NCBI GenBank assembly: GCA_029975165.1
Contig: JARKPR010000030.1
Location: 1 to 64,000 of the forward strand
From: Selenomonadales bacterium
GTDB taxonomy: Bacteria > Bacillota > Negativicutes > Sporomusales > UBA7701
Direction: 5' to 3'
Length of the DNA stretch: 64,000 nt
Part shown: one piece after another, positions 8,028 to 37,565 of the stretch
How positions within the stretch are numbered: position 1 is the stretch's first letter
How the letters are laid out: every line of letters starts with the position of its first letter
Program-made: the position numbers and the translations under genes
Notes under the pieces: generated by a model
The model's database searches: none
What the model was told of the DNA's origin: nothing
The model's input: the letters and a program-made list of their open reading frames with translations, nothing else

Positions 8028-8037
8028 ATTCGGGGTA

Positions 8038-8091
8038 TAGAAAAACCTGCGAAAAAGTCGCTTACTGCCAAAGTAAGAAACTTCCCGCAGG
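8038..8091 (-). terminator. Riboswitch-controlled attenuator before ilvN
   Basis: On the minus strand CCTGCG (8086-8091) pairs with CGCAGG (8046-8051), with inner pairing of CTTACT and AGTAAG, then a T run. The left arm overlaps the GACCCTGCGGG end of the aptamer, so ligand binding should block terminator formation (an ON switch). Confidence 0.8.
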
Positions 8092-8183: not shown

Positions 8184-8203
8184 TACATCACGTCATTGTA
8201 ATG

Positions 8204-8213
8204 TTGTATACAT
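8204..8213. promoter_or_regulatory. TTGTATACAT site at the ilvN promoter
   Basis: An 8-bp palindrome TGTATACA overlapping the edge of the -10 box. It matches the core of the palindromes at 8014 and 14872. Confidence 0.35.
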
Positions 8214-8240
8214 TATCCATGGACTACACATTTTTGTCAA
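8212..8240 (-). promoter_or_regulatory. Promoter of ilvN-ilvC
   Basis: Minus strand: TTGACA (8235-8240), a 17-bp spacer, and GATAAT (8212-8217), placed just before the riboswitch. Confidence 0.8.
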
Positions 8241-8249
8241 TACGCTTTT

Positions 8250-8271
8250 AAAAAGTTATGAGAACTTTTTT
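8250..8271 (-). terminator. Weak AT-rich terminator after microprotein B
   Basis: AAAAAGTT and AACTTTTT flank a 5-nt loop just downstream of the leu operon's last ORF. The stem is AT-rich and may only partly terminate. Confidence 0.35.
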
Positions 8272-8275
8272 GCCG

Positions 8276-8380
8276 TCACACACCGAGCGCTTGCCGCAGC
8301 AGGTTTTCGTCCGCCCGCGGGTCGACGCCCGGGATGGCTTCGCCGTCGGCGGTATGGGTGGTTTGGGGATCGGCGGTCAT
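8276..8380 (-). CDS. BCAA-cluster microprotein B (34 aa)
   Basis: It starts 14 nt after the ilvB2 stop, with AAAGGGGG about 8 nt before ATG, and encodes 34 residues. The last 17, GVDPRADENLLRQALGV, align with the end of microprotein A (6341-6439); the N-terminal half differs (Thr/Asp-rich). It is the final ORF of the leuACDB-ilvB2 operon. Conservation of the C-terminal half between two separate operons is the reason for calling it. Function unknown. Confidence 0.7.
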   Translation of the reverse strand: MTADPQTTHTADGEAIPGVDPRADENLLRQALGV

Positions 8381-8394
8381 GGCTAAACCCCCTT

Positions 8395-10056: not shown

Positions 10057-10093
10057 GTAGGCACCTCCTTTGCTTTTTGCGTTATTGGTACAA

Positions 10094-11164
10094 CTATTGG
10101 AGTTTTTTCAAGATCAATTTTGTCATTTCTTCGGTCGATACTTTCGTCATTCCCGGCCTGTACAGGTCGGCGGTGCGGTGGCCGGCGGCGAGGACGGCTT
10201 CAACGGCCTGCTCGATGGCGGCGGCGGCTTCCTCGGCCCCGAGAGAGTGGCGGAGGAGCATGGCGGCCGACAGGATGGTGCCTACGGGGTTGGCGATGCC
10301 CTGGCCGGCGATGTCGGGCGCCGAGCCGTGGATGGGTTCGTAGAGGCCGGTGCCGTCGCCGAGGCTGGCCGAGGGCAGCAGGCCGATGGAGCCGGTGATG
10401 ACGGCGGCTTCGTCACTGAGGATATCGCCGAAGAGGTTGCCGGTGACGACAACGTCGAAGCTTTTCGGGCTGAGGACGAGCTGCATGGCGCAGTTGTCGA
10501 CGTACAGGTGGCCGATGTCGAGGCCTTCTTCGCGGGCGGTTGCGGTGGCCACCCGCCGCCACAGGCGGGAAGAGGCAAGGACGTTGGCTTTGTCGACCGA
10601 GGTGATTTTGCCGCGCCGCCCTTTGGCTGCCCGGCAGGCGACCCTGACGATGCGGGCTACTTCGGGGACGCTGTAGACTTCGGTGTCCCAGGCCCGTTCG
10701 GTGCCTTCGATCGTTTCACTTTCGCATTTGGGGCCGAAGTACATGCCGCCGGTAAGCTCGCGGACGATGAGGATGTCGGTGCCGGTGACGATTTCGGGCT
10801 TGAGGGGCGAATAGGCGGTCAAAGCGGCGGAGACTTTGACCGGCCGCAGGTTGGCGTAAAGGCCGAGGGCTTTGCGGATGCCGAGGAGGGCTTTTTCCGG
10901 CCGGATTTCGGGGGCGACGCCGTCCCATTTGGGGCCGCCGACGGCGCCGAGGAGGACGGCGTCGGCAGCTTTGGCGGCCACGAGCGTTTCCTGCGGGAGG
11001 GGCTCGCCGTATTTGTCGATGGCCGCGCCGCCGGCCAGACAGGTGACGAATTCGAGGTCGAGGCCGCTTTTGTTGGCGGCGGCAGTGAGGATGGGCCGGG
11101 CGGCGGCGGTGATCTCGGGGCCGATGCCGTCGCCGGGGATGACGACGATCCGCTTGGTTGTCAC
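10094..11164 (-). CDS. leuB: 3-isopropylmalate dehydrogenase
   Basis: A 356-aa NAD-dependent beta-decarboxylating dehydrogenase of leucine synthesis. Typical motifs are GDGIGPEI at the N-terminus, the substrate region [10 protein letters not shown], and [16 protein letters not shown] near residue 280. GTG start overlapping the leuD stop by 3 nt (GTGA), indicating coupling. Confidence 0.96.
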
Positions 11165-11648
11165 GCCTTTTCCCCCTTCACGTAGTTGATGAGGCCGCCG
11201 GCTTTGGCGATGTCCTGGATGAAGCCGGGGAGAGGCTGGATGGTGTATTGTTTGCCGCTGGCCAGGTTTTCGAGCGTGCCGTTGCCGAGGTCGATGCGTA
11301 TCCGGTCGCCGCCTTTGATTTCCGCCACCGCCGGCCCGAGTTCGACGAGCGGCAGGCCGATGTTGATGGCGTTGCGGTAAAAGATGCGGGCGAAGCCGTC
11401 GGCGATGATGCAGGTGACGCCGCTGGCCTTGATGGCGACGGGGGCGTGCTCGCGCGAGGAGCCGCAGCCAAAGTTGCGGCCGGCGACGATGATGTCGCCG
11501 GGCTGGACCTTGCCGGCGAATGCGGGGTCGATGTCCTCCATGCAGTGGGCGGCGAGATGGGCGGGATCGGCAGTGTAGAGGTAGCGGGCCGGGATGATGA
11601 CGTCGGTGTCGACGTTATCGCCGAAGCGCCATACTTTTCCTTCGAGAA

Positions 11649-11652
<4 letters not shown>
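11161..11652 (-). CDS. leuD: 3-isopropylmalate dehydratase small subunit
   Basis: A 163-aa swivel-domain subunit of isopropylmalate isomerase. The start [19 protein letters not shown] and the loop [14 protein letters not shown] are diagnostic. ATG overlaps the leuC stop (ATGA). It works with LeuC to move the hydroxyl of isopropylmalate. Confidence 0.95.
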
Positions 11653-12911
<1,259 letters not shown>

Positions 12912-25506: not shown

Positions 25507-27054
25507 TCAATGGCTAGCCTGAGTATCCTTTCCCGGAACATCGAACCGATGGAAGCTAACCGCGAAAAAGCCTGCCGCCAGCAATATGTAGCCCAGGGTG
25601 AACTGCGGCGAAGCCCCCAGGGCAAGCTTGGTCGAGTGGATAATCCCGAAATAAGACAATGCTGCCGCAACCAGGCTGGTATAGGCCGCTTTTTTGAACT
25701 GCTTGTCTATCAGAAAAGTAATTATCGTAGCCAGGAGCATGGCCGACAGCAGCGCCCCCGAGGCCAGATTTGCAAGGCCCTGGTAATGCACCCCTACTTT
25801 TCCCAAGGCGCCTACGCCAAGCTTGTCAATGTTTGATCCGAGCGCCTTCATCGTGCTGTCGATCTGCCCCTTGGTGAAGTTCGCGACATGAGGGAGAAGG
25901 GCGATGGCGATTGCCGGAGCATGCGCCTTCGGGGTTGTCTGGAAAGCCTGGGCCGCCATCACCAGGCCGACGTACAAGAGGATAGGCAGGATGGCTTCGC
26001 GGGGTATAAGGGCGCTCAGCGTGGCCATCATCCCGCAAAGACATACCATGGCCACGGCAAAGCCGTCGACTAGGGTGTAGCCGCTGCGGCAGCCGATTTC
26101 CTTATAACCGGGGTGTCCGATATATACGTGCGCCGGGAAGCAGCCGCCGAAGAGCGAGCCGAACATTGTACCGATGCCGTCCATTAGCATCGTGTTGCGG
26201 GTGCTGTAATTGTCGCCGGCCGCCGCTGCGCTCTCGACGTTCTGCATGGTGGAAAAGGTGTTCTGTAACGACAGAGGGACAATTACAGCAATGTAGGGGC
26301 CCATGTTCTTAAAGCCTTCAATGACAGCGTCCACTGACAAAATCGGCAGGTTGAAGCCCAGCATCTTATAGCTCGCTGTAAGAGCCTCGGGATTCATGAA
26401 ACCCAAAAACCAGGCAATAGATGTGCCGACAATAACGCCGATTAAGCCGGCGGGAATGTGCCAGGGCAGCTTAAGCCGGCTAAAAAAGGTCAGCAGGGTG
26501 ATCAGCAGCGGGATGAAACTGATCTGCGGCCTGGTAAATATTTCGAGGGTAGGCGTCATGGCAATGAAGGCGATGGCCATGCCGGCGAGGGTGCCCAGGA
26601 GGGCCGCCCGGGGAGTGATCCGCCTGATCATCTCGCCGAAAAAGGCGCCGATGATTTCGAAAAAGCCATTGATGAAAGCGGCCGCACAGGCAACCTTCCA
26701 GGCTAAAATCCCGTCGCCGCCGCTCAAGGCGTAAACCGGGAACATGATCAAAAATAAAAAGCCAAAAACCGTTGAGGTGGTAATACCGTAGGGTATCGCC
26801 GTAACGTCGGTACGCTGTTCCTTTTCCGCCAGCTTTTTCGCCATCCAAGAGTAATAGCAGTTGCCGACCAGCAGCGAGAGGGCGATACCGGGGAGGACAT
26901 GGCTGAAAACAAATTCCGCCGGAATCTTGAACAAACCGATCATCGTCGTGACGATGATCATAAGATTAGCGATATTGTCTACAAAAAGTCCAAAAAAACC
27001 GTCGATGTCCTCGGAAACGAAGAAGGGATATTTCATTTTTGCAGCGTTATTCAC
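25507..27054 (-). CDS. NCS2/AzgA-like purine or heterocycle permease
   Basis: A 515-aa multi-spanning membrane protein with 12 or more hydrophobic segments; the first is in GLFVDNIANLMIIVTTM. TAIPYGI and the late YIGHPGYKEIGCRSGYTLVDG segment fit the NCS2 nucleobase-transporter superfamily. A GTG at 27054 has GGAGGT 8-9 nt upstream, whereas the ATG at 27060 would be only 2 nt from it, so GTG is preferred. Its position after LacI and before ubiD suggests uptake of the pathway substrate. Confidence 0.82.
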   Translation of the reverse strand: MNNAAKMKYPFFVSEDIDGFFGLFVDNIANLMIIVTTMIGLFKIPAEFVFSHVLPGIALSLLVGNCYYSWMAKKLAEKEQRTDVTAIPYGITTSTVFGFLFLIMFPVYALSGGDGILAWKVACAAAFINGFFEIIGAFFGEMIRRITPRAALLGTLAGMAIAFIAMTPTLEIFTRPQISFIPLLITLLTFFSRLKLPWHIPAGLIGVIVGTSIAWFLGFMNPEALTASYKMLGFNLPILSVDAVIEGFKNMGPYIAVIVPLSLQNTFSTMQNVESAAAAGDNYSTRNTMLMDGIGTMFGSLFGGCFPAHVYIGHPGYKEIGCRSGYTLVDGFAVAMVCLCGMMATLSALIPREAILPILLYVGLVMAAQAFQTTPKAHAPAIAIALLPHVANFTKGQIDSTMKALGSNIDKLGVGALGKVGVHYQGLANLASGALLSAMLLATIITFLIDKQFKKAAYTSLVAAALSYFGIIHSTKLALGASPQFTLGYILLAAGFFAVSFHRFDVPGKDTQASH

Positions 27055-27070
27055 ATACATTACCTCCAAA

Positions 27071-28057
27071 TTAAGTCGATTGGCGGACAACTAATTCGGT
27101 TCGCATAATCACCTCCCTTGCCGGGCCCGGCTCCTTCATGACCTCGATAAGTAAATTCGCCGCAGCGGCTCCGGATTCAACCGCATGCTGGGCGACTGTC
27201 GTCAGAGCCGGCGTAGTGATCTGGCTAATTTGCGAGTCCCCATAGCCGATCACCGCCATATCCTCCGGAACTACGAGCCCGCAATCCTTTGTCGCCTTGA
27301 GTACGGCCGCTGCCATCAGGTCACTGGCGGCGAACACGGCCTCAGGTCGATACCCCAATAATTTCCGGGCGGCATGATAGGCCTTATCGTAACTAAAAAA
27401 GCCTTCGGCAACCATATCCTGCCCGAGCATGATGCCGCGTTGCCACAGTTCTTGTTCAAACCCGTAAAGCTTCAACTGCGACTCCTCATTGTCCTTATAG
27501 CCGGTAATCACCGCGAACCGGCGATAGCCCTTGCCGACCAAGTAGTCCGCGGCCAATCGCGAACCGGCGGTAAAATCGGTTATCACGCGGTTAAAATCGC
27601 CATTTTGCCAACACCTGTTCACGACGACCAGCGGGATTATATCTTTGACCTCTTCCAACCAGTCCCGGCTCCCCGTCTTACCCGATGAACCGACTACGAC
27701 CAGCCCGTCGACTCGGCCCGCCAAGAGGGTGCCTATCCCCTCCTTTTCTTTACTCAAATGGTTTTCGGTCGAATACAACATTGTCGTGAATTTATTGGCT
27801 TCCAGTCTTTGAGTCAGCCCCGCGACTATGTCAGCGAACAGGGGATTACGAATCGTCGGAATGACTATGCCGATACAGTTGGTGACGCTCGTCTTCAGCG
27901 CTTTCGCCGTTGCGTGGGGCCGGTAACCGAGTTCGGCGATGGCGGCGTCGATCTTCTCCCGCGTCTCCTTCTTGACGTTCAACTTTCCGGCTACGTACCG
28001 GGATACCGTGGAGACATTGACCCCGGCCTTTTGGGCCACGCTTTTGATATTTGCCAT
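27071..28057 (-). CDS. LacI-family transcriptional regulator
   Basis: A 328-aa repressor. The N-terminal HTH reads IKSVAQKAGVNVSTVSRYV, with a hinge near residue 50, followed by a periplasmic-binding-like effector domain (GIVIPTIRNPLFADIV near residue 62, FAASDLMAAA, VIGYGD). No ribosome site precedes ATG; a 27-codon ORF ends 1 nt before it, so translational coupling is likely. A perfect LacI-type operator overlaps that ORF, implying autoregulation of the whole operon. Confidence 0.93.
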   Translation of the reverse strand: MANIKSVAQKAGVNVSTVSRYVAGKLNVKKETREKIDAAIAELGYRPHATAKALKTSVTNCIGIVIPTIRNPLFADIVAGLTQRLEANKFTTMLYSTENHLSKEKEGIGTLLAGRVDGLVVVGSSGKTGSRDWLEEVKDIIPLVVVNRCWQNGDFNRVITDFTAGSRLAADYLVGKGYRRFAVITGYKDNEESQLKLYGFEQELWQRGIMLGQDMVAEGFFSYDKAYHAARKLLGYRPEAVFAASDLMAAAVLKATKDCGLVVPEDMAVIGYGDSQISQITTPALTTVAQHAVESGAAAANLLIEVMKEPGPAREVIMRTELVVRQST

Positions 28058-28058
28058 T

Positions 28059-28142
28059 TTATTTTACGCAATCGTTTGCGTAAACCTCCAAAAAAATATA
28101 TTCACCTGTTTCAGCCTGGTGAAAGTCCTTAATTTCTGTCAT
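28059..28142 (-). CDS. Possible 27-aa leader ORF coupled to lacI
   Basis: An open frame beginning MTEIKDFHQAETGEYIF, stopping at TAA 1 nt before the lacI ATG. It overlaps the operator and lies after the second terminator. Its own ribosome site is poor, so it is tentative. Confidence 0.35.
   Translation of the reverse strand: MTEIKDFHQAETGEYIFLEVYANDCVK
28063..28084. promoter_or_regulatory. LacI-family operator
   Basis: Perfect 9-bp arms TTTACGCAA/TTGCGTAAA around TCGT, close to the classical CGCAAACG-type LacI/PurR operator. It sits just before lacI and well downstream of the promoter, so it would act as a roadblock or bind together with another site. Confidence 0.8.
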
Positions 28143-28150
28143 TTCAAACC

Positions 28151-28199
28151 CGAAAAAACCTTGGCAGAAAGTCCGCAACGTGCGGCAACCGCCAAGGTT
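28151..28199 (-). terminator. Second leader terminator
   Basis: Minus strand AACCTTGGC and GCCAAGGTT pair around a hairpin-forming insert and are followed by TTTTTT. A second attenuator between the riboswitch and lacI. Confidence 0.7.
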
Positions 28200-28231
28200 C
28201 AAGCTTTAAGCGTCATAAAGTGTATGGAACC

Positions 28232-28262
28232 AAAAAGCCTATTGCTAATGATAAGCAATAGC
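28232..28262 (-). terminator. Guanine riboswitch terminator
   Basis: Minus strand GCTATTGCT and AGCAATAGGC pair and are followed by TTTTTGG, 24 nt past the aptamer. Confidence 0.75.
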
Positions 28263-28285
28263 TCCTACATCCAAAAACACCTTCC

Positions 28286-28356
28286 ATTCGTAGCTCGGCA
28301 TTTTACGGTCGCCGTGTAGAAACTTCTGAGCCATATCCCCAGAAATATACGAGATT
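28286..28356 (-). promoter_or_regulatory. Guanine-type purine riboswitch
   Basis: The minus strand matches the purine aptamer: P1 TCGTA/TACGA; P2 around the loop GATATGG; J2/3 AGTTTCTAC; the P3 loop CCGTAAAA; and J3/1 ending GCTACGA. The base before UA in J3/1 is C, which specifies guanine/hypoxanthine rather than adenine. P3 is about one pair longer than in the textbook xpt aptamer. It is followed by a terminator, so guanine should switch the operon off. Confidence 0.88.
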
Positions 28357-28370
28357 ATTCACTTGGATTT

Positions 28371-28399
28371 ATTATACTTTTTCTCACATAAAAGTGCAA
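28371..28399 (-). promoter_or_regulatory. Promoter of the lacI-ubiD operon
   Basis: Minus strand TTGCAC (28394-28399), a 17-bp spacer, and TATAAT (28371-28376). Confidence 0.8.
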
Positions 28400-28449
28400 T
28401 AAATACCATGAAATACAACTCAAAATCCATGATTTTGCCTAGTATAAAC

Positions 28450-28487
28450 GGAAGCATAGGCTTGCTAAAACGCAAGCCTATGCTTCC
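28450..28487. terminator. Displaced tRNA-Ala terminator hairpin
   Basis: A perfect 16-bp inverted repeat (arm GGAAGCATAGGCTTGC) with a 6-nt loop. It lies just beyond the left attachment repeat in the direction of tRNA transcription, so it is probably the original terminator of tRNA-Ala, now 9 kb away. Confidence 0.5.
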
Positions 28488-28515
28488 ATTCCCACAAAAA
28501 ATCTGCAAAACCCCT

Positions 28516-28567
28516 TAGTTACTGGTGGAGACGATGGGATTCGAACCCACGACCTCTTGAATGCGAG
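28516..28567 (-). repeat. Left attachment site (tRNA-Ala 3' copy)
   Basis: 52 bp identical to 37483-37534: the tRNA 3' half from the anticodon loop through the T arm and CCA, plus 7 bp beyond. The 5' half of the tRNA is absent here. Confidence 0.9.
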
Positions 28568-28709
28568 TGTAATAAACCTTGTTTGTTAACGTTTTTTTAT
28601 GTTGGCGAACCCTTGCGACAACTAGGTTTATGCCTTATGGTTGTTGGTAACTGCTGGCGAAATACTATCCCCATTTGCAAGCCGGTATCCCCAATAGTAT
28701 CCCCATATA

Positions 28710-28853
28710 TTATAGTCCCTTTCGGTCTGGCGTTTCGGATATGATCTTCGCCAAAACCCGTGCAATTTGCTTAACGGCCAAATCCTTGGTGTTAGGAAAC
28801 CGGCGCACCTTTAACGTGCGGCCGGTCTTGCGGCAGATCGTGTAGACAACCAT
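28710..28853 (-). CDS. Small basic protein (47 aa)
   Basis: Starts MVVYTICRKTGRTLKVRRF. GGAGGT lies 8 nt before ATG. Basic, no domain recognised. It lies next to the left end of the island, where excisionase or cargo genes are often found. Confidence 0.55.
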   Translation of the reverse strand: MVVYTICRKTGRTLKVRRFPNTKDLAVKQIARVLAKIISETPDRKGL

Positions 28854-28904
28854 ACCCAGTAACCTCCGTTTAGTCCGTCTTTTAGGGTATACTATCCGGT
28901 TCTC

Positions 28905-29201
28905 TCATGCGGACGTGGCCACATTGACAGCCGCACGCCTCGCTTTAGCAATAATTCTCTGGTGTCTCCTTAAAACGCTGTCATCAATAAGGTGTTTCCG
29001 GGCCAACTTGATCATATAGGCTTGACGATCAAGAAATGTTTTGCCGTGAAAATCGGGCTTAATTTGGAAAACGTACTTTTCGCAGCGGTTACAGCGAAAC
29101 AAGAGTTTGCTGTTGTCGGGGTCAGTATCATGAACAGTTACCACCATCTCAAGGGACAAAGTCCTTCCGCAATCAGGGCAACGATGATTGGTATTGCTCA
29201 T
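28905..29201 (-). CDS. Zinc-ribbon hypothetical protein
   Basis: A 98-aa protein with two CxxC pairs, CPDCGRTL near residue 8 and CNRCEKYVF near residue 37, forming a probable zinc ribbon, followed by a basic helical tail. GAGG about 10 nt upstream of ATG. Island cargo of unknown function. Confidence 0.65.
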   Translation of the reverse strand: MSNTNHRCPDCGRTLSLEMVVTVHDTDPDNSKLLFRCNRCEKYVFQIKPDFHGKTFLDRQAYMIKLARKHLIDDSVLRRHQRIIAKARRAAVNVATSA

Positions 29202-29342
29202 AATTCAATTCCTCGCCTTCTTTGATTTTTTGTACCCTGCCGGCGAGTTTGATATAATGTTGCCGACAGAGCAAGTACCTTTTGCGGGCTTGTCCTTGTC
29301 GCCGGCCGGGCCCTGGCTCCAACAGGGCCCGGCCCTTCACTT

Positions 29343-29534
29343 TTAATCGGCATTCGACGGTTTGGGCTTTTGTGTGTTGCTCTCAAGCCATATTTCCAAC
29401 TCGGCTTTTGGTACCCTCCACAGCTTGCCGATTTTTGTGCCGGGGATAGTCCCGGCTCTAAGCCAATCCTTAACAACCTTTTCACTAACCTTAAGAATCC
29501 CTGCAACCTCTTCCGGCGTAAAGTATTCGTCCAT
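29343..29534 (-). CDS. MerR/excisionase-type HTH protein
   Basis: A 63-aa winged-helix DNA-binding domain: FTPEEVAGILKVSEKVVKDWLRAGTIPG, then KLWRVPKAELEIWL, the usual excisionase/HTH_17 layout. AAGGGGGTG just upstream of ATG. Candidate excisionase or regulator of the island. Confidence 0.8.
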   Translation of the reverse strand: MDEYFTPEEVAGILKVSEKVVKDWLRAGTIPGTKIGKLWRVPKAELEIWLESNTQKPKPSNAD

Positions 29535-29743
29535 AATTCACCCCCTTGAGAATATAATACCATGTGCAATATTACTTTTCAATACTTTTTCGTCCTTTAT
29601 AATACTTTTACATCCAATAATATCCATTATGTTAATTTGTATTTTAGTTTACGAAAGCCTATAACGCCATTAAATAAAGGGTTTACGGTATTCAAGTCAC
29701 AAACAACGATCTTTAATATTTGTCCTGTTTTTCCTCGGTGGAC

Positions 29744-29774
29744 AAAAAAGGGGGCCCTTTCAAGGTTGCCCCCC
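29744..29774 (-). terminator. Terminator within the island
   Basis: Minus strand GGGGGC and GCCCCC arms followed by TTTTTT. It lies in the 429-bp gap 29535-29963, which holds no convincing gene; a hairpin CGCCAC/GTGGCG with a T run near 29863-29890 points the other way. Confidence 0.65.
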
Positions 29775-29963
29775 TAGCACTCTTCAAATTCGTATCCTGG
29801 GTACCTGGCCATAAACCGCTGCATTAAGGCCCCGCATACCTTTTCCTTCCTGGTTCATTCGCCACGCGCCCCTGTGGCGTGTTTTTTTACTATCCTGCGT
29901 GTTGGTTCCCTTACCCACGTCGCGTTATTCGTCCCGATGGCCACCACGCAGCCAGCGGGTTTA

Positions 29964-30551
29964 TTACTGCCCCAAATCTGGCCGTCGTTGAAGCTCTTTT
30001 AATATGTCGGCGTTTTTAGGGTAGTTTTTGGCCCTTTCAAGAACGCCGGCGATTGATCGAGCCAACTTCGTGAAAAAAGGGTGCTGCTCGTTCAGTTCGG
30101 TAACTTCGTTGGCGTCACGGGCCCCGATAAATTCGCCGTCTTGATCAATATACATTTCGCGTGAAACCGTTACCTGCCTGTTTTGCATATCAAAAAAAGC
30201 GTAGTCTACAACGAACCTGAGTAATTCGGGGTAAGTTTTGCCGAAAGTAGCGATGTAATTGTCGGCGATACCTGTTTTGATGTTCTCTATTGTATTGCGC
30301 CTCGCCTGATCGTCTTTAATTTCAAAGTACAACGCCATAGAAAAGTTACCGCTTTGAGGGTACTTGGCCCAGAAGAGGTTAAAATTTATCATGTCGGCCG
30401 GTATATACACATTAATCTTGCTGTCCGAGTAAACTAATACGGTTTCCGTCCACGAATGGCTTTGCACCGAACTTTTTACCACCGGGTTACATTGCGCCGT
30501 ACTCCAGGCCAGAAATACCGCGAGGAACACCAAAACAACCTTGACTTTCAT
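29964..30551 (-). CDS. Secreted hypothetical protein
   Basis: A 195-aa protein with a clear signal peptide (KVKVVLVFLAVFLAWSTA, cleavage near residue 20). The mature part is soluble and mixed, with no family recognised. GGGAGG lies 9 nt before ATG. As island cargo it may act in the envelope; nothing more can be supported. Confidence 0.65.
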   Translation of the reverse strand: MKVKVVLVFLAVFLAWSTAQCNPVVKSSVQSHSWTETVLVYSDSKINVYIPADMINFNLFWAKYPQSGNFSMALYFEIKDDQARRNTIENIKTGIADNYIATFGKTYPELLRFVVDYAFFDMQNRQVTVSREMYIDQDGEFIGARDANEVTELNEQHPFFTKLARSIAGVLERAKNYPKNADILKELQRRPDLGQ

Positions 30552-30635
30552 TCTTCGCAGCCTCCCAATATATGGTTTTTAGCTACAGAGTATCATAGCT
30601 GTCAAAACTTGAAAACTACTGCCTTAAGCCTGCGC

Positions 30636-30878
30636 CTAAACGTCCAAAGGTACCTGGCGGCTGTAATTGGTTTTTGCCGGCTTCTTTCGTTGTTTGCTCC
30701 CCCCGTCGCCACCCTTGGGGTTGCCATAACGGCCTTCGGCTATTTGCGCCGCCCACGTCTCCTTTAATTGGCGGCCAGTGTCCATGTCCGGCCAGAGTTC
30801 GGCGCCGCAGCCAGGGCACTTCCAGAAGTCCGGGTGCTTCACCATCATCTCACGACATAACGGGCATATAACCGTCAT
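30636..30878 (-). CDS. Small zinc-ribbon protein
   Basis: An 80-aa protein with CPLCREMM at residue 5 and CPGCGAEL near residue 21, a typical zinc ribbon, followed by a basic tail rich in Lys and Gly. GAGGGGGC precedes ATG. It follows the 30888 gene by 9 nt, so probably co-transcribed. Confidence 0.65.
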   Translation of the reverse strand: MTVICPLCREMMVKHPDFWKCPGCGAELWPDMDTGRQLKETWAAQIAEGRYGNPKGGDGGSKQRKKPAKTNYSRQVPLDV

Positions 30879-30887
30879 AGTGCCCCC

Positions 30888-31154
30888 TCAATAGCGTATT
30901 TTCCCGAGGTTGCAATTGCCCACGATCACAGTACCATCCGGCAGGACTTTATATTTCCCTGGCGGAATGTGGCAGGTGAATTTACCGGGCCGAATTATAA
31001 GTAGCCGGCCGTCAGAGTCGGGGAAAACAGTCATTGAATAAAGCCCGTGGGTAACGTGGTTTCGGTTCCCCCATTTGGGCATCCAGTTCCCGCGGGCTCC
31101 CCTGGCCGCCTGATTGCCGGGTAAAAACTTGCCGGACTTTGGGTCGCGGTCCAC
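30888..31154 (-). CDS. Island hypothetical protein
   Basis: An 88-aa protein beginning MDRDPKSGKFLPGNQAARG, a phrase seen at the start of some phage terminase-small-subunit and related proteins, but the rest (ending VIVGNCNLGKIRY) does not look like a full domain. GTG at 31154 is preferred because GGAGG lies 8 nt upstream; the ATG at 31169 has no ribosome site. Confidence 0.55.
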   Translation of the reverse strand: MDRDPKSGKFLPGNQAARGARGNWMPKWGNRNHVTHGLYSMTVFPDSDGRLLIIRPGKFTCHIPPGKYKVLPDGTVIVGNCNLGKIRY

Positions 31155-31172
31155 CCCACCCGCCTCCATTCA

Positions 31173-31201
31173 CTAACGTTACTTTATATCGGTAACGTTA
31201 G
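31173..31201. promoter_or_regulatory. CTAACGTTAC palindrome in the island
   Basis: Arms CTAACGTTAC and GTAACGTTAG around a 9-nt AT-rich spacer, overlapping the region just upstream of the 30888 gene. Related strings (GTAACGTTTACG at 31311, TAAACGTT at 31204) are nearby. Probable operator for the cargo genes. Confidence 0.5.
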
Positions 31202-31225
31202 TTTAAACGTTCCCCATCCCCACGG

Positions 31226-31264
31226 CGAAAAGCCGCCTCCGTCCTAAAGAAAGCAAGGCGGCTA
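31226..31264 (-). terminator. Terminator of the island tail-gene operon
   Basis: Minus strand AGCCGCCT and AGGCGGCT arms followed by TTTT, about 110 bp past the baseplate gene. Confidence 0.6.
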
Positions 31265-31375
31265 TTCTATTCTACTAACATCGTCTAACCGTTTTGGAAG
31301 CAAAAAAATAGTAACGTTTACGAACCTTTTTCGGGAACAAGTTGTTACCCTAAAGGCGGCAGATCATACAGTGCC

Positions 31376-32350
31376 TTAGCCGTTGGGGCTCTGTTGTCGA
31401 TTTTCCAACATAGCCAAGAGGCTTTTTCTACCGTAGCGGCTCACGCCATCAACTTCCGTGTACCATTCGTCCCCGCGGGTATCGCCGTAATGGATAACCC
31501 GGTAAGCCTGGTACTGTCCGTCCTGATCGAGCATAGAGGGGATTTGGCCAATTCGCTGCTTTAGCTGCCGGACAATGCTGTTGTCGATCTTGACCATGGA
31601 CATTAGTTTGATAGCCGGATTTAGCAGGCATTTGAAAGCAACGCCGTCTTGGGTCTGCTGCGGCACGCCTACAAGTCCGGTTTCCGGCGAAAGAACAATT
31701 GTTTCGCCGGGGGCTTCGTCTGTAGCTTTGGCGATGTAGATTTGGCCGTCATCAACCCAAAAGTTGGCGCTGTTGTCGCGGGCAATGTCTCGCAGGTACT
31801 TCTTGGGCATTCCGAAAAAGACTTTCCCGCGGGGAAGGGCTTGCGTGCTAAGATCGGGAGAAATTCGGCCAATCTCCGTTAGCGTCAGAGCCGCAGAGGC
31901 AATTTGGTTGACAAACTGGCGTTGGTTGAGACCAGCGTTGACCGTCATGCGAACAATGTTGTTATTGAGAAAACTATCGCCGTCCAAGCAAACCAACGTC
32001 AGTTTATAATCAACATTATTATCCTCGCGGTCCCTGATCGGCTGAATAACTTCGCCGTCAAAGATCACGCCGTATTGCTTGGGAGTTATCACCTGCTGCG
32101 CGGCGCCCTGCTGCTGCGCCTGTAAATACCCTTGGTAACCGGCCTCGATAATAATCCGCATGCCCTCTTTGACGATAAGCGCTTCGGTTTCGGGGGACAG
32201 GTTATATATAGCTACCTCGGCATAGTTGGACGTGGAATTGGCAATCTTCTCAACGCAAAAAACACACCGAAGGTTGGACACGTCAAGCGCAGTATTACCC
32301 TTGTCAGCCACCAACACACGGTATTTTCGGCCATATAAAAAATCGCTCAT
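31376..32350 (-). CDS. Phage baseplate hub-like protein
   Basis: A 324-aa protein. The N-terminal part (CVEKIANSTSNYAEVAIYNLS, residues about 30-50) resembles baseplate-hub proteins of contractile-tailed phages, followed by FDGEVI and a hub-like beta-rich body. ATG overlaps the stop of the preceding tail gene (ATGA). In phages such proteins sit at the tail tip under the spike. Similarity is judged by eye. Confidence 0.65.
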   Translation of the reverse strand: MSDFLYGRKYRVLVADKGNTALDVSNLRCVFCVEKIANSTSNYAEVAIYNLSPETEALIVKEGMRIIIEAGYQGYLQAQQQGAAQQVITPKQYGVIFDGEVIQPIRDREDNNVDYKLTLVCLDGDSFLNNNIVRMTVNAGLNQRQFVNQIASAALTLTEIGRISPDLSTQALPRGKVFFGMPKKYLRDIARDNSANFWVDDGQIYIAKATDEAPGETIVLSPETGLVGVPQQTQDGVAFKCLLNPAIKLMSMVKIDNSIVRQLKQRIGQIPSMLDQDGQYQAYRVIHYGDTRGDEWYTEVDGVSRYGRKSLLAMLENRQQSPNG

Positions 32351-32994
32351 TCCTCCACCCCCATTGCCTTCGCTATCTGTCGCGCTGTTGTCGCCGATGG
32401 TTCCTGTGGTTGCTGCTGTCCCCGGTTTGTGCTACCTGTAGCGTGTGGCCGCGCGCTCACCGTCGTTTTGCTCACCTCGACGACGAATATTTCCTTGAGC
32501 ATGACTGTACACCTGAGCCCGTAAAGGGTTTTCATGTCATCGGGCGCCGTCATTTCCTCGATCAACATGTTTTGGTAAACGTTCAACCGGGTAACGACCT
32601 GCAAAGGCACTCGCGTTTGTTGCAACCGCAACAAAGTTTGATAGGCCGATACGGATTTTGTAACGCCTTCGGTAAACTGGCCGGCTACAACGCTATCCAT
32701 AGCGTCGGACATGGCCACTTCCATTGTCAGGCGGGAAGGCTGCACGTACGAATGGTCCGTGATGTTGGCGCCGGTCTGTACGGGATGCTCGGTAATTTTT
32801 AGCGACGTGGTATGTTCTTCGCGCACTATGGCGTCAAAGAAATACCCGCCGATGTTGGTTTTCACATAAACCAACTGCTCGGCGCTGGCCGATAGTCCCG
32901 CCCATTCCTGCGGTCGCCACGGCCCGTCTTGCTGCGGCACCTCGGGCGGGGTCTGCTGTGCAGGCCAACCGAAAATATTGAACAGTCCAGGCAT
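32347..32994 (-). CDS. Dit-like phage tail protein
   Basis: A 215-aa protein. Residues 55-95 (EEHTTSLKITEHPVQTGAN, then TDHSYVQPSRLTMEV) match the N-terminal domain of Dit-like baseplate proteins; SVSAYQTLLRLQQTRVPLQVVT follows the family pattern. The C-terminus is low complexity (Gln/Pro/Thr). Coupled to the hub-like gene. Confidence 0.7.
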   Translation of the reverse strand: MPGLFNIFGWPAQQTPPEVPQQDGPWRPQEWAGLSASAEQLVYVKTNIGGYFFDAIVREEHTTSLKITEHPVQTGANITDHSYVQPSRLTMEVAMSDAMDSVVAGQFTEGVTKSVSAYQTLLRLQQTRVPLQVVTRLNVYQNMLIEEMTAPDDMKTLYGLRCTVMLKEIFVVEVSKTTVSARPHATGSTNRGQQQPQEPSATTARQIAKAMGVEE

Positions 32995-33020
32995 TAGTCA
33001 CACACCCTTTCTATTGTTTT

Positions 33021-33632
33021 TCAACGCCACTTGGCACAACGAGTTAAGCTAAGACAGGTCTGCCCGTTAGGTTCCATCGTCAGCCTTGGCACAAAGCCTT
33101 TTTGAGTACACTCGCGCGGCGTCCACAGACAACGGCTGCACATTTCTTCGCTGTCCTTGGCCTCGCGAAATTCCCGCTCATTCGCCAATATAACGGCATC
33201 GCTGACTCGCGGGAATAACTCTCGGGCGAACGGTCCCAGTTCGGCCAAGGCGGCCCGGTTAATCTCCATGTACGTGCGGTCTGCGCTCACATCGGCGCCG
33301 GACAGGATGCGCTTTGCGAGCTCTGCGCACTGGCAGCCGAAGTCAGTTGATTCACTGCGCTGCGCCTCAGCCAGGAAGCCGGCAATCCCCTTCGGTTTGG
33401 TCACCTCTTCCCGTAATAGCTCTTCGATGGCCTTGCGTAAATCGGCGACGTTGGGGAAACGGTGCTGACTGTTGATTACCGCGATAGCGGCTGTTTCAAA
33501 CACTTCATCGTCGTAGCCCTTGAACATCTGCCACCACATGCCCTGCATCGCTGCGGCCTCGGCGTTTTCGAACTGAGCCCGGTAATTTAGAGTTAACTTC
33601 AAAAATACCCTCGCTATAGTCTCCTTGGTCAT
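33021..33632 (-). CDS. Replicative helicase loader/inhibitor-like protein
   Basis: A 203-aa protein. The N-terminal 75 residues (LTLNYRAQFENAEAAAMQGMW, then FPNVADLRKAI) follow the G39P/helicase-loader pattern. A C-terminal Cys cluster (CSRCLWTPREC, later TCLSLTRC) suggests a metal site, which is unusual for the family. Overlaps the initiator gene by 4 nt. Confidence 0.65.
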   Translation of the reverse strand: MTKETIARVFLKLTLNYRAQFENAEAAAMQGMWWQMFKGYDDEVFETAAIAVINSQHRFPNVADLRKAIEELLREEVTKPKGIAGFLAEAQRSESTDFGCQCAELAKRILSGADVSADRTYMEINRAALAELGPFARELFPRVSDAVILANEREFREAKDSEEMCSRCLWTPRECTQKGFVPRLTMEPNGQTCLSLTRCAKWR

Positions 33633-34645
33633 ATCTCCTCCTCCAGAAAAGCCCGCGTCCCAGCGATGGCACCGGCCATACGCGAACGCTGTTGCGTGCT
33701 CACGGGCAGTCGGTTATCATAGTTCCCTTCGGCAATCTTTTGCCTGTTAGCCGGTTTAAGAACCCAATCAAAGCCCGCGCGAAAGCCCTGCTCCGTCCTG
33801 TTGGTTAAAAAGTCGCTTGCTTCCACCCGTCGGAAGAAATCTTCAACCGTCCGTCCATCCTGGCCAATCCACTTCAAAAAGCCCTTGATTGCTGCCTGTC
33901 GATGGGCGGTAACGTCTCTTACCCTCGGCAGAGAAGTGCAAGTTGCGTTGAAGGTTTCCACTACCGTTCCGTAAGGAACGGTGTCTTTACCATTCTGCCA
34001 TTTTTCCATTTTTGTTTGTGTCACGCTGCTGTCACGCTGAATGTTATTCTGAATGTCACCTTTGCTATCATTTTTTAGCGGAGCGAGTTGGTAAAGTTCC
34101 CAATTTGTAAGGCTTACAAGGCTATATTTGTTGTTACCCTGGATGTCTAAACTTTGGTTATCTCGCAGCCACAGCATGTACTTCCAAAAAGTTGAAGGAT
34201 TCAACTTTAATTCGGCCGCCCCGACAAAGCGGCCAGTGATAAACTGGCCCGGCATCAGAGTAATTTTTTTTAGGCCAACAGTCTGTTTATGTTCTTTATG
34301 GGACGCTTTTAGTAGGCACCATATCCATGTTTTTAATAAACTAGGATTTGAAAATATGGCACCTTCCAGCAGCCGGCGATGTAACCGAACATAACCTTCA
34401 ATGAGTACCGCCTCCCTAACAATCCGACGCAGCACGCCCACCTTCGGCGCCGGCGCCGGCTGCTGCCGGCCGTCCTGCTCCTTGGCGGCAATCCACGCCA
34501 GCACGGTTGCCAGCCGGTAGAAAATCCGCGCACCCACCGTGAAGTATGGGCAGCCCTCTTTAAGCCGCATCCCGCGAACCGTCCACGGGCTCAGGCCAAG
34601 CTCGGCCGCTAGTTCCCGTTCATTCAATACCCGTGCTGTATTCAT
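33629..34645 (-). CDS. Phage replication initiator-like protein
   Basis: A 338-aa protein. An N-terminal HTH (LNERELAAELGLSPWTVRGM) of the excisionase/AlpA type is fused to a winged-helix region typical of phage DnaD/O-like replication proteins (residues 100-190: WIWCLLKASH, MPGQFITGR, NPSTFWKYMLWL). The C-terminus carries a DnaD-like tail. GAGAGGG lies 9 nt before ATG. Confidence 0.65.
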   Translation of the reverse strand: MNTARVLNERELAAELGLSPWTVRGMRLKEGCPYFTVGARIFYRLATVLAWIAAKEQDGRQQPAPAPKVGVLRRIVREAVLIEGYVRLHRRLLEGAIFSNPSLLKTWIWCLLKASHKEHKQTVGLKKITLMPGQFITGRFVGAAELKLNPSTFWKYMLWLRDNQSLDIQGNNKYSLVSLTNWELYQLAPLKNDSKGDIQNNIQRDSSVTQTKMEKWQNGKDTVPYGTVVETFNATCTSLPRVRDVTAHRQAAIKGFLKWIGQDGRTVEDFFRRVEASDFLTNRTEQGFRAGFDWVLKPANRQKIAEGNYDNRLPVSTQQRSRMAGAIAGTRAFLEEEI

Positions 34646-34648
34646 GAT

Positions 34649-34858
34649 CTATAGCCCTCTCGTGTTCTCCTTCACATTGGCCATGCTTTGGGCGCCAATC
34701 CAATCCCGGATTACATCGGCGTCGAAAAAAACCCGCCGGCCAATGCGAACATAGGGAATGTGGTTGTTGCGCACGTCGCGCCAAATTGACTCTGTGGATT
34801 TCTTCCCGCCGAAGAGTTGAGCGGAAACTTCCTCGGCCGTCAAAAGTGCCCGGTCCAT
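34649..34858 (-). CDS. HTH DNA-binding protein (AlpA/excisionase-like)
   Basis: A 69-aa winged-helix domain: LLTAEEVSAQLFGGKKSTESIW, then IPYVRIGRRVFFDADVIRDWI. GGGAGGG upstream of ATG. First gene of the minus-strand island operon, next to the divergent promoters; a likely switch protein. Confidence 0.8.
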   Translation of the reverse strand: MDRALLTAEEVSAQLFGGKKSTESIWRDVRNNHIPYVRIGRRVFFDADVIRDWIGAQSMANVKENTRGL

Positions 34859-34889
34859 CGTTTGCCCTCCCTTTTTTAGTTATATCGAC

Positions 34890-34932
34890 TTGTATTTACC
34901 TAAATTATCCTGTATAATATGAAACAAAACAA
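34890..34932. promoter_or_regulatory. Overlapping divergent promoters of the island
   Basis: Plus strand: TTGTAT (34890), 17 bp, TATAAT (34913-34918). Minus strand: TTGTTT (34927-34932), 17 bp, GATAAT (34904-34909). The two -10 boxes lie within 15 bp, so the promoters should exclude one another. Confidence 0.7.
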
Positions 34933-34991
34933 CATTAATTGCCCATTACATTTGATATTTTACATTACAAATCAAGGGAGATGTGTTGCTA

Positions 34992-35957
34992 ATGCATGAA
35001 CCGAAACCTATAGAACATTCAATTTTTATGGGACAAGTCGCCGATAATGGCTATCAGATTCAGACACCCGCCGGAACCACCTCTTATCTATTAGAAAAGC
35101 CGGGAAGCACAAAGTATAAGACGTACGAACCACTAGTTGAAAACCCCGCATTGTTTGCGGAGTTCGCAGAATTGGAGCCTACGAAGGAAGCTATAACCGA
35201 TTTCGCTAATAAATACGGCCTCCTGATTGGCAAAGGTTATCCCGTTGTTAAGGGGTCGAAAAGCAATTTCTCGACGGCCGTAACGCCCGGAGACCCAGTT
35301 TTAATATGGTTCAATGAAATAGCTCACATGAAGGCGCTTATGACCATCTGGAGACACTACCTTGAGCAAAATAAAGAGGCGTTGGCTCAATGGTTCTATT
35401 GGGAAAACGGACAAATTAAATGCGTTCCTCTAACTAAAACCTATCCCGGCGATAACAGCCCTTACGCATGGCACGATTTCAGCCAAAGCGTCAACAACCT
35501 TCTAGCCATACCGAAAGTAGCGGCACAAATAATTCCTGGGGACATTCTACTGCCAGTAAAGATTTTTGTAATGACCGTCGTAAATGATAAACTTGTTCAA
35601 TATCCTGCACTTGCTCAGATAACGATCAACGTCAACGGTCTCATTCTAGCTCCGAAATTTCAGCCTAAGAACCTGCTTTCGGTGCTGTGGTTCCAATTTT
35701 CCCGGTATGTAATCGGCGAGTTGAAGGTTACGCCTTGCATCGTCTGCGGAGGATGGGTTGAGTTCACCGACGGCAAAAAAATGAAAGCCCACCCGGCCTG
35801 CTCTAATCGTTGGCGGGTTAAGAAGTCAAGGATACGGCCCGATGTTTTGCGCCTGCACGCTGAGGGGAAAACAGTTTCTGAAATAACCCTTGCCTTAAAT
35901 GCGGACCGGAGAATGGTCCTGCAAATATTGGAGGTAGCAAATGGCCGGTTCAATTGA
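34992..35957 (+). CDS. Island protein with zinc-binding and HTH-like C-terminus
   Basis: A 321-aa protein, no family recognised. The C-terminal third has CIVCGGWVEF ... HPACSNRWR, a zinc-knuckle-like pattern similar to CGNR-type fingers, then an HTH-like stretch LHAEGKTVSEITLALNADRR. The N-terminal 230 residues are unassigned. ATG 34992 is 11 nt from GGGAG; TTG 34986 is an alternative. It overlaps the integrase start by 17 nt. It could be a regulator or an island-encoded defence/immunity factor. Confidence 0.7.
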   Translation: MHEPKPIEHSIFMGQVADNGYQIQTPAGTTSYLLEKPGSTKYKTYEPLVENPALFAEFAELEPTKEAITDFANKYGLLIGKGYPVVKGSKSNFSTAVTPGDPVLIWFNEIAHMKALMTIWRHYLEQNKEALAQWFYWENGQIKCVPLTKTYPGDNSPYAWHDFSQSVNNLLAIPKVAAQIIPGDILLPVKIFVMTVVNDKLVQYPALAQITINVNGLILAPKFQPKNLLSVLWFQFSRYVIGELKVTPCIVCGGWVEFTDGKKMKAHPACSNRWRVKKSRIRPDVLRLHAEGKTVSEITLALNADRRMVLQILEVANGRFN

Positions 35958-37359
35958 AAAGCGCGGGAAAAATTCATATCGCCTTGTAGTGTCTGGCGGC
36001 CTGGACGGCAACGGCCGGCAGGTAAAAAAGACAAAAACAGTCACTTGCTCGGATATGAAGGCAGCCGAGAAGGAACTGGCCAGGTTCATCACCGATATTG
36101 AGGACGGCAAGCATGCCACCTCGGGCAAAATGACCCTGGCGGCGTTCTATGAATACTGGAAAAAAAACCACGCGACGAAGAATCACCAGGCGACCACAAT
36201 AGCCTACAATGATTTTATCTTCGCCAGGATTAAGGCAACTCTGGGCCATAAGCGACTCGACAAGATCGAGCCGAAGCACCTATTGAGCTTTTACGAAAAC
36301 CTGGCCGAACCGGGCATAAAGAAGCTGCCGAAGAGAAAGAAGAAGGGGCAGCAGGGCGATCTCCCGCCGGCGGCCGGCAGCATCCCGGAGGCCGGCAGCG
36401 TACCGACCGATGCCACCCCCGCGGCCACCCCCGAAGCTGAAACCGGCGCCAGCACCACCGACGCCACCCCCCCGGAAATCGCCGCGGCCGGTAGCGCCAC
36501 CCAGGCCGGCCACGTCCCGGCGGTCGGCGCCTGCCTGTCCGCCAACACCATCCGCAAGCACCATGCCCTGATCTCCTCACTGCTCAACAAGGCCGTACAA
36601 TGGGGACTAATCCCGAACAACGCCGCTGATCGCGTCGAGCCCCCAAAGGTGGACCAGAAGCCGAAGGCCATTTATGACCAGGAAACCCTTGGCGCTTTTT
36701 TGCAGGCCATCGATGGCGAAGGTGATAAGCAGAAACTATGGATACTCCTCGCCCTGACCGGTGGCCTCCGGCGGGAGGAGATATTCGGCTTGGAGTGGCG
36801 CCACGTCGATTTCGCAAATAGTAGCTTACGGGTCGAGCAGGCCAGCGTGTACGTCCCAGGAACCGGCACGATACCCAAAGGGACAAAGAACAGGAGCAGC
36901 GACCGCCTGGTGAGTATCCCCGGCTCAGTCATGGAGATACTCAGTCGGCATAGGCTCACACAGAACAAGAAGCGCCTCAAAATGGGCGGCCATAAAGACG
37001 ATGGCGGCAAGTGGGCCGGCGCGAAGGAACCCGGCGGTGACCGGGTATTCACTCAATGGGACGGACGGCCGGCGCACCCTCACAGTTTCAATACCTGGTT
37101 ACGGCGCCTCGTCAAAGAGCATCAACTGCCGCCAATCAGCCCGCATGCCTTCCGGCATATGGCGGCCACCTACCTTATCGCCGGCGGTACCGACGTAAGG
37201 ACCGTATCCGGCAAGCTGGGGCACAGCAGAACCAGTACAACCATGAACATCTACAGCCACCTTTTGAAATCGGCCGAACAGGAGACGGCCGAAAGGATGG
37301 AGACGTTCCTTACACAGACAAGCACCCTCGCAAAAAGCAAAAAGGGGCAGGCGAATTAA
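35941..37359 (+). CDS. Tyrosine integrase with low-complexity insertion
   Basis: A 472-aa site-specific recombinase. It has an N-terminal arm-binding domain (residues 1-60) and a core-binding domain that is interrupted at about residues 128-198 by a Pro/Ala/Thr-rich insert. In the catalytic domain Arg is in GGLRREEIFGLEW, then the Lys region TKNRSSDR, HAFRHMAA, LGHSRTSTT, and the nucleophile Tyr in MNIYSH. It lies beside its tRNA target and should catalyse integration and excision of the island. Confidence 0.95.
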   Translation: MAGSIEKRGKNSYRLVVSGGLDGNGRQVKKTKTVTCSDMKAAEKELARFITDIEDGKHATSGKMTLAAFYEYWKKNHATKNHQATTIAYNDFIFARIKATLGHKRLDKIEPKHLLSFYENLAEPGIKKLPKRKKKGQQGDLPPAAGSIPEAGSVPTDATPAATPEAETGASTTDATPPEIAAAGSATQAGHVPAVGACLSANTIRKHHALISSLLNKAVQWGLIPNNAADRVEPPKVDQKPKAIYDQETLGAFLQAIDGEGDKQKLWILLALTGGLRREEIFGLEWRHVDFANSSLRVEQASVYVPGTGTIPKGTKNRSSDRLVSIPGSVMEILSRHRLTQNKKRLKMGGHKDDGGKWAGAKEPGGDRVFTQWDGRPAHPHSFNTWLRRLVKEHQLPPISPHAFRHMAATYLIAGGTDVRTVSGKLGHSRTSTTMNIYSHLLKSAEQETAERMETFLTQTSTLAKSKKGQAN

Positions 37360-37376
37360 CGCCTGCCCCTCCGTTT
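37343..37376 (+). terminator. Integrase terminator
   Basis: AGGGGCAGGCG and CGCCTGCCCCT arms followed by a T run; it overlaps the last integrase codons. Confidence 0.85.
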
Positions 37377-37455
37377 TTTCTTGCTAAATCTTTGTGGTCA
37401 TTTGCGGATTTTGTTACCCGGTATCCCCAAAACTATCCCCATATTTACATAACTA

Positions 37456-37480
37456 AAGGCCCCGCGTTCCCGCGGAGCCC
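37456..37480 (-). terminator. Element-supplied terminator of tRNA-Ala
   Basis: Minus strand GGCTCCGCG and CGCGGGGCC arms (one wobble) followed by TTT, just past the tRNA 3' end. Confidence 0.55.
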
Positions 37481-37482
37481 CG

Positions 37483-37534
37483 TAGTTACTGGTGGAGACG
37501 ATGGGATTCGAACCCACGACCTCTTGAATGCGAG
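37483..37534 (-). repeat. Right attachment site inside tRNA-Ala
   Basis: The 52-bp direct repeat matching 28516-28567; the intact tRNA continues to the right of it. Confidence 0.9.
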
Positions 37535-37565
37535 CCAAGCGCTCTCCCAGCTGAGCTACGCCCCC
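37490..37565 (-). tRNA. tRNA-Ala (CGC)
   Basis: A 76-nt cloverleaf starting GGGGGCG and ending with encoded CCA. D arm GCTCAGCTGGGAGAGC; anticodon loop CTCGCAT, giving CGC; T arm GTGGGTTCGAATCCCAT. The acceptor stem has two G-U pairs. It is the island's integration target. Confidence 0.95.

Follow-up and report, generated by a model that had tools for sequence, protein, structure and literature searches.

What use can a small island have for phage tail genes when no gene for a phage head is recognisable in it? The question is raised by an island at a tRNA-Ala gene, at positions 28511-37534 of the stretch analysed here (the window, 64,000 nt; positions 1 to 64,000 of contig JARKPR010000030.1 in assembly GCA_029975165.1 of a Selenomonadales bacterium, genome G000 in our set). 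A sequence-only reading had seen in it either a phage satellite that modifies helper tails or a reduced prophage frozen in place. The answer we prefer, drawn by analogy and with our confidence evenly balanced, is that it may be a phage satellite whose own tail-nucleation proteins enter the tails of a helper phage. The observation behind it is an element with defined ends that carries integrase, replication and helix-turn-helix (HTH) genes, and in which no particle gene was recognised other than a baseplate hub and a tube initiator. The satellite half of the earlier statement is supported by three further hub elements without head genes. The frozen-prophage half is not favoured, given the missing debris, the gene order and the purifying selection acting on the gene cassette.

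The island (~9.0 kb) is flanked by a 57-nt direct repeat with one mismatch, of which 52 nt are perfect, and its integrase lies at the tRNA end. The perfect 52-bp attachment (att) repeats and the intact integrase that had been taken to mark a defined unit were thus both found, the 472-aa integrase frame being open and matching PF00589 (1.4e-21). The right repeat overlaps tRNA-Ala(CGC) (37490-37565, minus strand), the only tRNA of the window. The G+C content is 45-54% in 2-kb windows starting at 28001-35001, below the 60-70% of the right flank and most of the window; the left flank has 49-60% (19 to 28 kb) and the island is not clearly below it. INPHARED holds no DNA nearly identical to the island. 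The search for an empty site succeeded in part. Four other members of the genus were searched, and in three of them (G001, G002, G004) the stretch examined contains a single, intact tRNA-Ala(CGC) whose right flank is that of the window (80-81% DNA identity). A joined empty site was not found in these three, their left flanks having no match to the window. An Rfam scan of the window reported only the tRNA and, outside the island, a purine riboswitch (RF00167, 73.5 bits; 28271-28372, minus strand). The latter lies directly beyond the left att site; downstream of it are two minus-strand genes, one for a LacI-type regulator (27071-28057) and one that is permease-like (25507-27090; labelled by eye, without Pfam match).

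Thirteen island frames were scanned against Pfam and PHROG families. An operon-like series on the minus strand (HTH, DnaD/O-like initiator, G39P-like loader, Dit-like, hub, 93-aa, zinc ribbon, secreted, HTH_17 and second zinc-ribbon genes, in this order) is divergent from a 324-aa protein gene and the integrase. The features are given below, with relatives in two Sporomusa prophages and in the elements of genomes G004 and G005, both presented later.

28511..28567: left att copy; its perfect 52 nt are 28516-28567
28710..28853, minus strand: 47-aa open reading frame (ORF); a relative 59% identical adjoins the integrase in the G004 element
28905..29201, minus strand: 98-aa zinc-ribbon-like protein; all Pfam matches below cut-off
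29343..29534, minus strand: 63-aa HTH_17 (AlpA/excisionase-type) protein; 92% identical in G004
29964..30551, minus strand: putative secreted protein, 195 aa; related proteins occur in the G004 element (73%) and the G027 prophage (41%)
30636..30878, minus strand: 80-aa zinc-ribbon-like protein; a weak relative lies upstream of terL in the S. ovata prophage
30888..31169, minus strand: 93-aa protein with a weak, short motif like the terminase small subunit (TerS); 82% identical in G004
31174..31211: AACGTT boxes (two TAACGTTA), a candidate operator conserved ahead of the 93-aa gene in G004
31376..32350, minus strand: baseplate hub, 324 aa; PF22759 (8e-14), phrog_196 (2.1e-67)
32347..32994, minus strand: Dit-like tube initiator, 215 aa; PF21821 (9.1e-35)
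33021..33632, minus strand: G39P-like helicase loader, 203 aa; PF11417 (2.4e-5)
33629..34645, minus strand: DnaD/O-like replication initiator, 338 aa; phrog_2514 (1e-23), with a relative in the G005 element
34649..34858, minus strand: 69-aa HTH_17-like protein, excisionase or regulator; below the Pfam cut-off
34983..35957, plus strand: 324-aa protein, possible regulator; no Pfam or PHROG match, a 23% relative adjoins the G005 integrase
35941..37359, plus strand: tyrosine integrase, 472 aa; PF00589 (1.4e-21), 47% identical to the integrase of the G005 element
37478..37534: right att copy, overlapping the 3' part of tRNA-Ala(CGC)

The Dit stop and the hub start overlap by 4 nt as ATGA (32347-32350). 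The two proteins previously described as tail-tip proteins are indeed present, as a Dit-like protein (PF21821) and a hub (PF22759, phrog_196). Their solved relatives by sequence are the Pam3 tube initiator gp17 for Dit (1.6e-19; 6 chains in the entry) and the Pam3 hub gp19 for the hub (1.5e-14; 3 chains), and the pair is therefore, as judged from these relatives, the putative nucleation core of a contractile tail. Dit also matches phrog_1517 (2.1e-19), whose endolysin label is misleading, and the virion protein family phrog_16481 (0.032). For the hub, INPHARED gave 560 records (best identity 42.5%), plasmids 25 records, all below 60% identity, and IMG/VR 254, of which the best 80 were used.

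The replication module proposed earlier was recovered as the DnaD/O-like initiator (phrog_2514) and the G39P-like loader (PF11417). The small zinc-ribbon and secreted cargo genes are likewise present, all Pfam matches of the 98-aa zinc-ribbon-like protein being below cut-off and the signal peptide, the basis of the label 'secreted', being judged by eye. No function could be assigned to the secreted protein from its AlphaFold model, which is weak (pLDDT, the predicted local distance difference test score, 59) and has no PDB match at E<=0.001; its IMG/VR match is a single contig, a KB1-type phage. AACGTT boxes occur six times in the 9-kb island and twice in the other 55 kb; ten are scattered in the G004 element, where two boxes are conserved although their spacer differs.

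The absence of head, portal or terminase large-subunit (TerL) genes also stands, none of these families having a convincing match among the 13 frames (Pfam, PHROG). Family scans, and tblastn with the ORFs of the Sporomusa prophages, revealed no convincing sheath, tube, tape-measure or spike gene in the island; sheath and tube genes, as a tailocin or contractile injection system has them, were not found there. The 93-aa protein was considered as a possible TerS: its match to the TerS family phrog_1889 (4.5e-4 over 34 residues) is a weak motif only, and it has no blastp match among the KB1 and S. ovata ORFs, TerS included, nor any match in IMG/VR. Another TerS family, phrog_57, is matched by the HTH portions of the 338-aa (1.5e-5) and 63-aa (0.011) proteins, and the match of the secreted protein to a head family is at chance level (0.092).

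Could the island then be a KB1/ovata-type prophage, decayed or frozen, that has lost its head and most of its tail genes? Contractile prophages with head-to-tail gene sets are present in Sporomusa sp. KB1 (G027) and S. ovata DSM 2662 (G024), and the island is related to them by its hub (62-65% identity), Dit (55-57%) and secreted protein (KB1; 41-42%), and the zinc ribbon has a relative there as well. In KB1 the relative of the secreted protein lies in reverse orientation between Dit and the plug gene, and in S. ovata a weak relative of the 80-aa protein lies upstream of a terminase-like gene. These four relatives speak for decay, as does a second, degraded copy (294 bp) of the zinc ribbon-secreted junction elsewhere in the genome (G000:C50:2171-2464, L175; 77% identical), which adjoins a tyrosine-recombinase-like ORF (by eye). 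The cassette therefore also occurred elsewhere in the G000 lineage; alternatively, the fragment reflects decay of a second copy. However, tblastn with the 84 ORFs of these two related prophages detected no trace of head or other tail genes in the island, and no debris beyond Dit, hub, secreted protein and zinc ribbon. Moreover, the phages have the order zinc ribbon, terminase and, further on, tape-measure protein (TMP), Dit, plug (PF22479), hub, spike, gp25-like and gpJ-like genes (some labels by eye), while the island has Dit, hub, 93-aa, zinc ribbon, secreted. Since the 93-aa gene and the zinc ribbon follow the hub in the island and the phage zinc ribbon precedes Dit and hub, the island order cannot be obtained from the related prophages by deletion alone. 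This goes against decay from full prophages with the same genes, the outcome that the sequence-only reading had named as fatal to a satellite. Together with the purifying selection of a cassette that is combined with distant integrases in G000 and G004, and the origin of hub-only elements at least two times, it makes simple prophage decay unlikely, and we give it little credence.

The search for related islands was productive. A single-protein query of the genome contigs gave nothing, and an alignment query gave matches. A hub profile search of 380 genomes of the class (E<=1e-20) found the hub in 13 genomes. In four of these (the island genome, G004, G005 and G011) the hub is part of a capsid-less element bounded by repeats, which adds three att-bounded hub elements to the island.

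584289-594089 of G004 (same genus): 9.8 kb, with 22-bp repeats
81381-102525 of G005 (same family): 21 kb, with a 49-bp repeat at tRNA-Arg
388303-399528 of G011 (same order): 11.2 kb, with 22-bp repeats

The hub is the only one of the 84 prophage ORFs that matches all four elements (tblastn). The other matches are Dit in G000 only, the secreted protein and zinc ribbon in G000 and G004, the C-terminus of a fibre-region protein in G005 and primase segments in G011; a 57-aa prophage ORF has one weak match in G004 (E=0.006). Two 12-kb flanking controls had no match to the 84 ORFs. The G000 and G004 elements share a colinear DNA block (29211-32351, 3.1 kb, 74.5%) with the HTH, secreted, zinc-ribbon, 93-aa and hub genes, whose proteins are 73-92% identical. 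The two integrases are only distantly related (29% over 233 residues); the G000 replication protein has no tblastn match in G004, yet both replication proteins match phrog_2514. G005 shares instead the backbone of G000, with the integrase (47%), the replication protein (35%) and its HTH (60%), and the 324-aa protein (23%). G011 has only the hub and a distant integrase (23%) in common with G000 and encodes a VapE-like primase (2.2e-45). Relatives of the integrase also occur in G023 and G014, genomes without a hub match, and no hub element was seen beside them.

The additional genes of these elements are diverse. The cargo of the G004 element (L016 3590-13391) includes a gene for a Schlafen/AlbA_2 protein (PF04326, 3.2e-15) and two genes for which Pfam gave no match. 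In the G005 element three tandem genes of ~266 aa, apparently paralogous by eye, directly follow the hub (L027 10929-13356); PHROG gave no match for the first two, nor did Pfam for the first. This element also encodes a LamG-like protein (by eye) with tail-family matches, a putative fibre protein, and a 666-aa ORF with a weak PADLOC match to REase_II models (4.5e-6).

The cassette common to G000 and G004 is under purifying selection. The NG86 numbers of nonsynonymous and synonymous substitutions per site (dN/dS) are 0.042/0.669 for the HTH gene, 0.108/0.653 for the 93-aa gene, 0.104/0.663 for the zinc ribbon and 0.159/1.372 for the secreted protein, giving ratios of 0.06-0.17 for these four small genes (0.12-0.26 with YN00). 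For the hub, dN is 0.16 and no ratio is given because dS is saturated.

The hubs themselves do not have a single origin. Approximately unbiased (AU) tests reject the four island hubs as one clade (p=4.46e-5), as they do the G000, G004 and G005 hubs together (p=5.7e-6) and the G011 and G005 hubs together (p=1.7e-4), the last two groups having been named after the tree was seen. In a tree of 85 rows, from which we left out the repeat loci L033, L034, L046, L156 and L160, 17 rows that were identical, and hits with E above 1e-40 or a span of <250 residues, the island label needs three changes, at least two of them forced by well-supported branches. A second tree was built from 35 hand-picked rows, the listed locus L120 being without a row. 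Because of the AU tests and these label changes, the hub sequences point to no fewer than two captures or reductions and perhaps to three; the backbone shared by G000 and G005 carries hubs that the tree places in two lineages.

Among 60 genomes including that of the island, the hub occurs in 9, Dit in 6, the sheath in 5, the spike in 6 and a gpJ-like wedge in 9. All five are found together in five genomes (G003, G024, G027, G048, G053), and a hub without a sheath occurs only in the four genomes with hub elements, which have no sheath, spike or wedge match. We also compared 117 hub loci, taken from the named genomes, IMG/VR and retrieved stretches, some of which repeat one another. In 115 of them another tail gene of the S. 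ovata set lies nearby; the exceptions are L046, which is the G005 element, and L053 (Methylobacterium terricola), whose hub frame is apparently interrupted, while L147 has the spike only. In L147, an IMG/VR contig, Toprim/DUF927 primase genes are followed by hub and spike (4684-12096) and other S. ovata-type tail genes were undetected in 14.1 of its 15.2 kb; this may be a further satellite, with hub and spike. L053 has a primase-like gene (by eye) and a resolvase upstream of the hub and a tape-measure-like ORF after it (1788-12365), and is possibly another reduced element.

This distribution also bears on the main rival of a satellite, in which the island hub, with or without the initiator, would be a decoy that poisons the tail assembly of invading contractile phages, protecting host and island while the island stays unpackaged. 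The lack of a KB1/ovata-type sheath match in any island genome would fit such a role, as would the G004 and G011 elements, in which a hub suffices without an S. ovata-type initiator. Tail assembly is, moreover, a known target of defence, by the tail-assembly inhibitors Tab (PMC10884400) and Tai, the latter found in phage-inducible chromosomal islands (PICIs) and P4-like satellites (PMC11364771). However, a decoy would be free to shed parts of the protein, and the island hubs retain every domain and align with the Sporomusa hubs from end to end; in G000 the initiator and hub genes are still an overlapped pair; and the elements have retained integrase and replication modules such as transferable satellites typically have. 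PADLOC found no known defence gene among six island proteins and three G004 proteins scanned. We consider the decoy rather unlikely.

The hub-initiator pair could also be passive cargo, picked up by chance, or serve a use outside the virion. Most of the small genes have no function assigned from family scans, which would fit such cargo. However, four elements, whose hubs belong to at least two lineages, have retained the same gene, and hub dN is low at saturated dS; we regard this explanation as improbable.

Comparison with known satellites returns us to the preferred reading. PICIs are att-bounded islands of ~10 kb with an integrase, HTH_17/AlpA-like genes, a replication module and no capsid genes, and a VapE-type primase is usual in them. 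The island is similar in its att sites, integrase, HTH_17/AlpA-like genes and replication module, and the related G011 element has a VapE-type primase. It differs by an O-like initiator and a loader in the place of a Pri-rep/VapE-type gene and has no clear TerS or capsid-remodelling gene. To our knowledge, the hub and the tube initiator are not PICI markers. The phage-inducible chromosomal minimalist islands (PICMIs) resemble it as minimal satellites with an integrase, AlpA (PF12728 is accepted) and no capsid-remodelling gene, but their model demands a DUF3987/DUF5906 primase, which had no match in G000; according to PMC10803314 the particle is unchanged beyond packaging. The Sporomusa KB1/ovata prophages differ in their complete gene sets and in the plug gene (PF22479) between Dit and hub, which is missing from the island.

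The closest precedent is PLE11, one of the PICI-like elements (PLEs) of Vibrio cholerae. According to its 2026 description (PMC12987554), the TMP and BhuB in the virions of PLE11 are those that it encodes and not those of phage ICP1 (western blot and mass spectrometry, n=1 each), PLEs are the first satellites known to make chimeric tails, and tmp genes occur in other putative satellites and in some capsid-forming PICIs. BhuB is 41% identical to its phage counterpart, ICP1 gp78 (PMC12987554). In our scans gp78 (L190 8449-9063) matches PF21821 Dit_like (1.2e-17), the family of the island Dit, and ICP1 ORF76 matches phrog_196 (6e-49), like the island hub; the family link to PLE11 thus combines the scan of gp78 with the published identity of BhuB to it. 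BhuB is named a baseplate hub in that paper, yet gp78 falls in the Dit-like/tube-initiator family. The island thus appears, from its gene families, to carry the family that PLE11 appears to use, plus the hub proper (phrog_196), without a tape measure. Both have their own tail-core proteins, whose incorporation in helper tails is an experimental result for PLE11 (PMC12987554) and a reading of genes for the island. The island is not a PLE, because the tape-measure and tail-chaperone genes reported for PLE11 are missing from it; phylum and gene set also differ. That it works like PLE11 is our best guess, made by analogy. No description of a satellite with a lone hub or a Dit-hub pair was found in the literature searched, preprints and most subscription papers lying outside it.

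The trigger for a satellite of this kind would be infection by, or induction of, a contractile-tailed phage of the Sporomusa KB1/ovata type. The island would then excise and replicate with its own initiator and loader, and its tube initiator and hub would replace the helper copies in the tail. These proteins would form the rings where tail tube growth starts, in few copies per virion, and the chimeric tails would join helper heads carrying island DNA. Seizing such a low-copy assembly step would favour island particles and harm the helper, perhaps also adjusting receptor or host range. Regulation by the small zinc-ribbon and HTH genes and exclusion of superinfection by the secreted protein are guesses. 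More tentatively, the four elements may represent a recurrent class of satellites that seize helper tails with a hub, with or without a tube initiator and without a tape measure, assembled independently at least twice, with hub cassettes and integrase/replication backbones passing between elements.

Several points weigh against this reading. Induction, packaging and transfer of the island are predicted from its genes; it has no proven packaging gene, the TerS-like match being weak, and no match to the TMP or chaperone, both present in PLE11. The zinc-ribbon, secreted and Dit genes look phage-derived, as in a prophage remnant. The expected helper was found in part, as prophages with related Dit and hub in Sporomusa; in the four island genomes the KB1/ovata-type sheath has no match (a diverged sheath would be missed), and because of this the helper would come from outside or be of another type. 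G000 itself has two terminase-bearing loci of other types: C33, which has a TerL and a transposase-like ORF (by eye) that led us to read it as Mu-like, and C71, where one ORF resembles a terminase and another a portal protein. For the boundaries of the G004 and G011 elements 22-bp repeats are the sole basis, and a longer repeat of G011 (27 bp, 387961/403339) was judged unrelated on account of its position outside the integrase. A single clade of the G000, G004 and G011 hubs is not rejected (p=0.10). The co-occurrence controls comprised Dit, sheath, spike and one wedge protein only and gave stray matches outside the full sets (spike in G014, over 50 residues; wedge in G014, G025, G055 and G059). 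Finally, the elements were found via the hub, so that others with a different lone tail gene could be missed.

Redirection of capsids and packaging by satellites is well documented, and chimeric tails were reported in 2026 for PLEs (PMC12987554). Here, unrelated candidate satellites from the order of Sporomusa carry a hub, and in one case also a tube initiator, instead of tmp, apparently captured more than once. If the satellite reading is true, satellites in general would have a point of control in tail nucleation, and cultured Sporomusa strains whose prophages match could provide a system for testing it.

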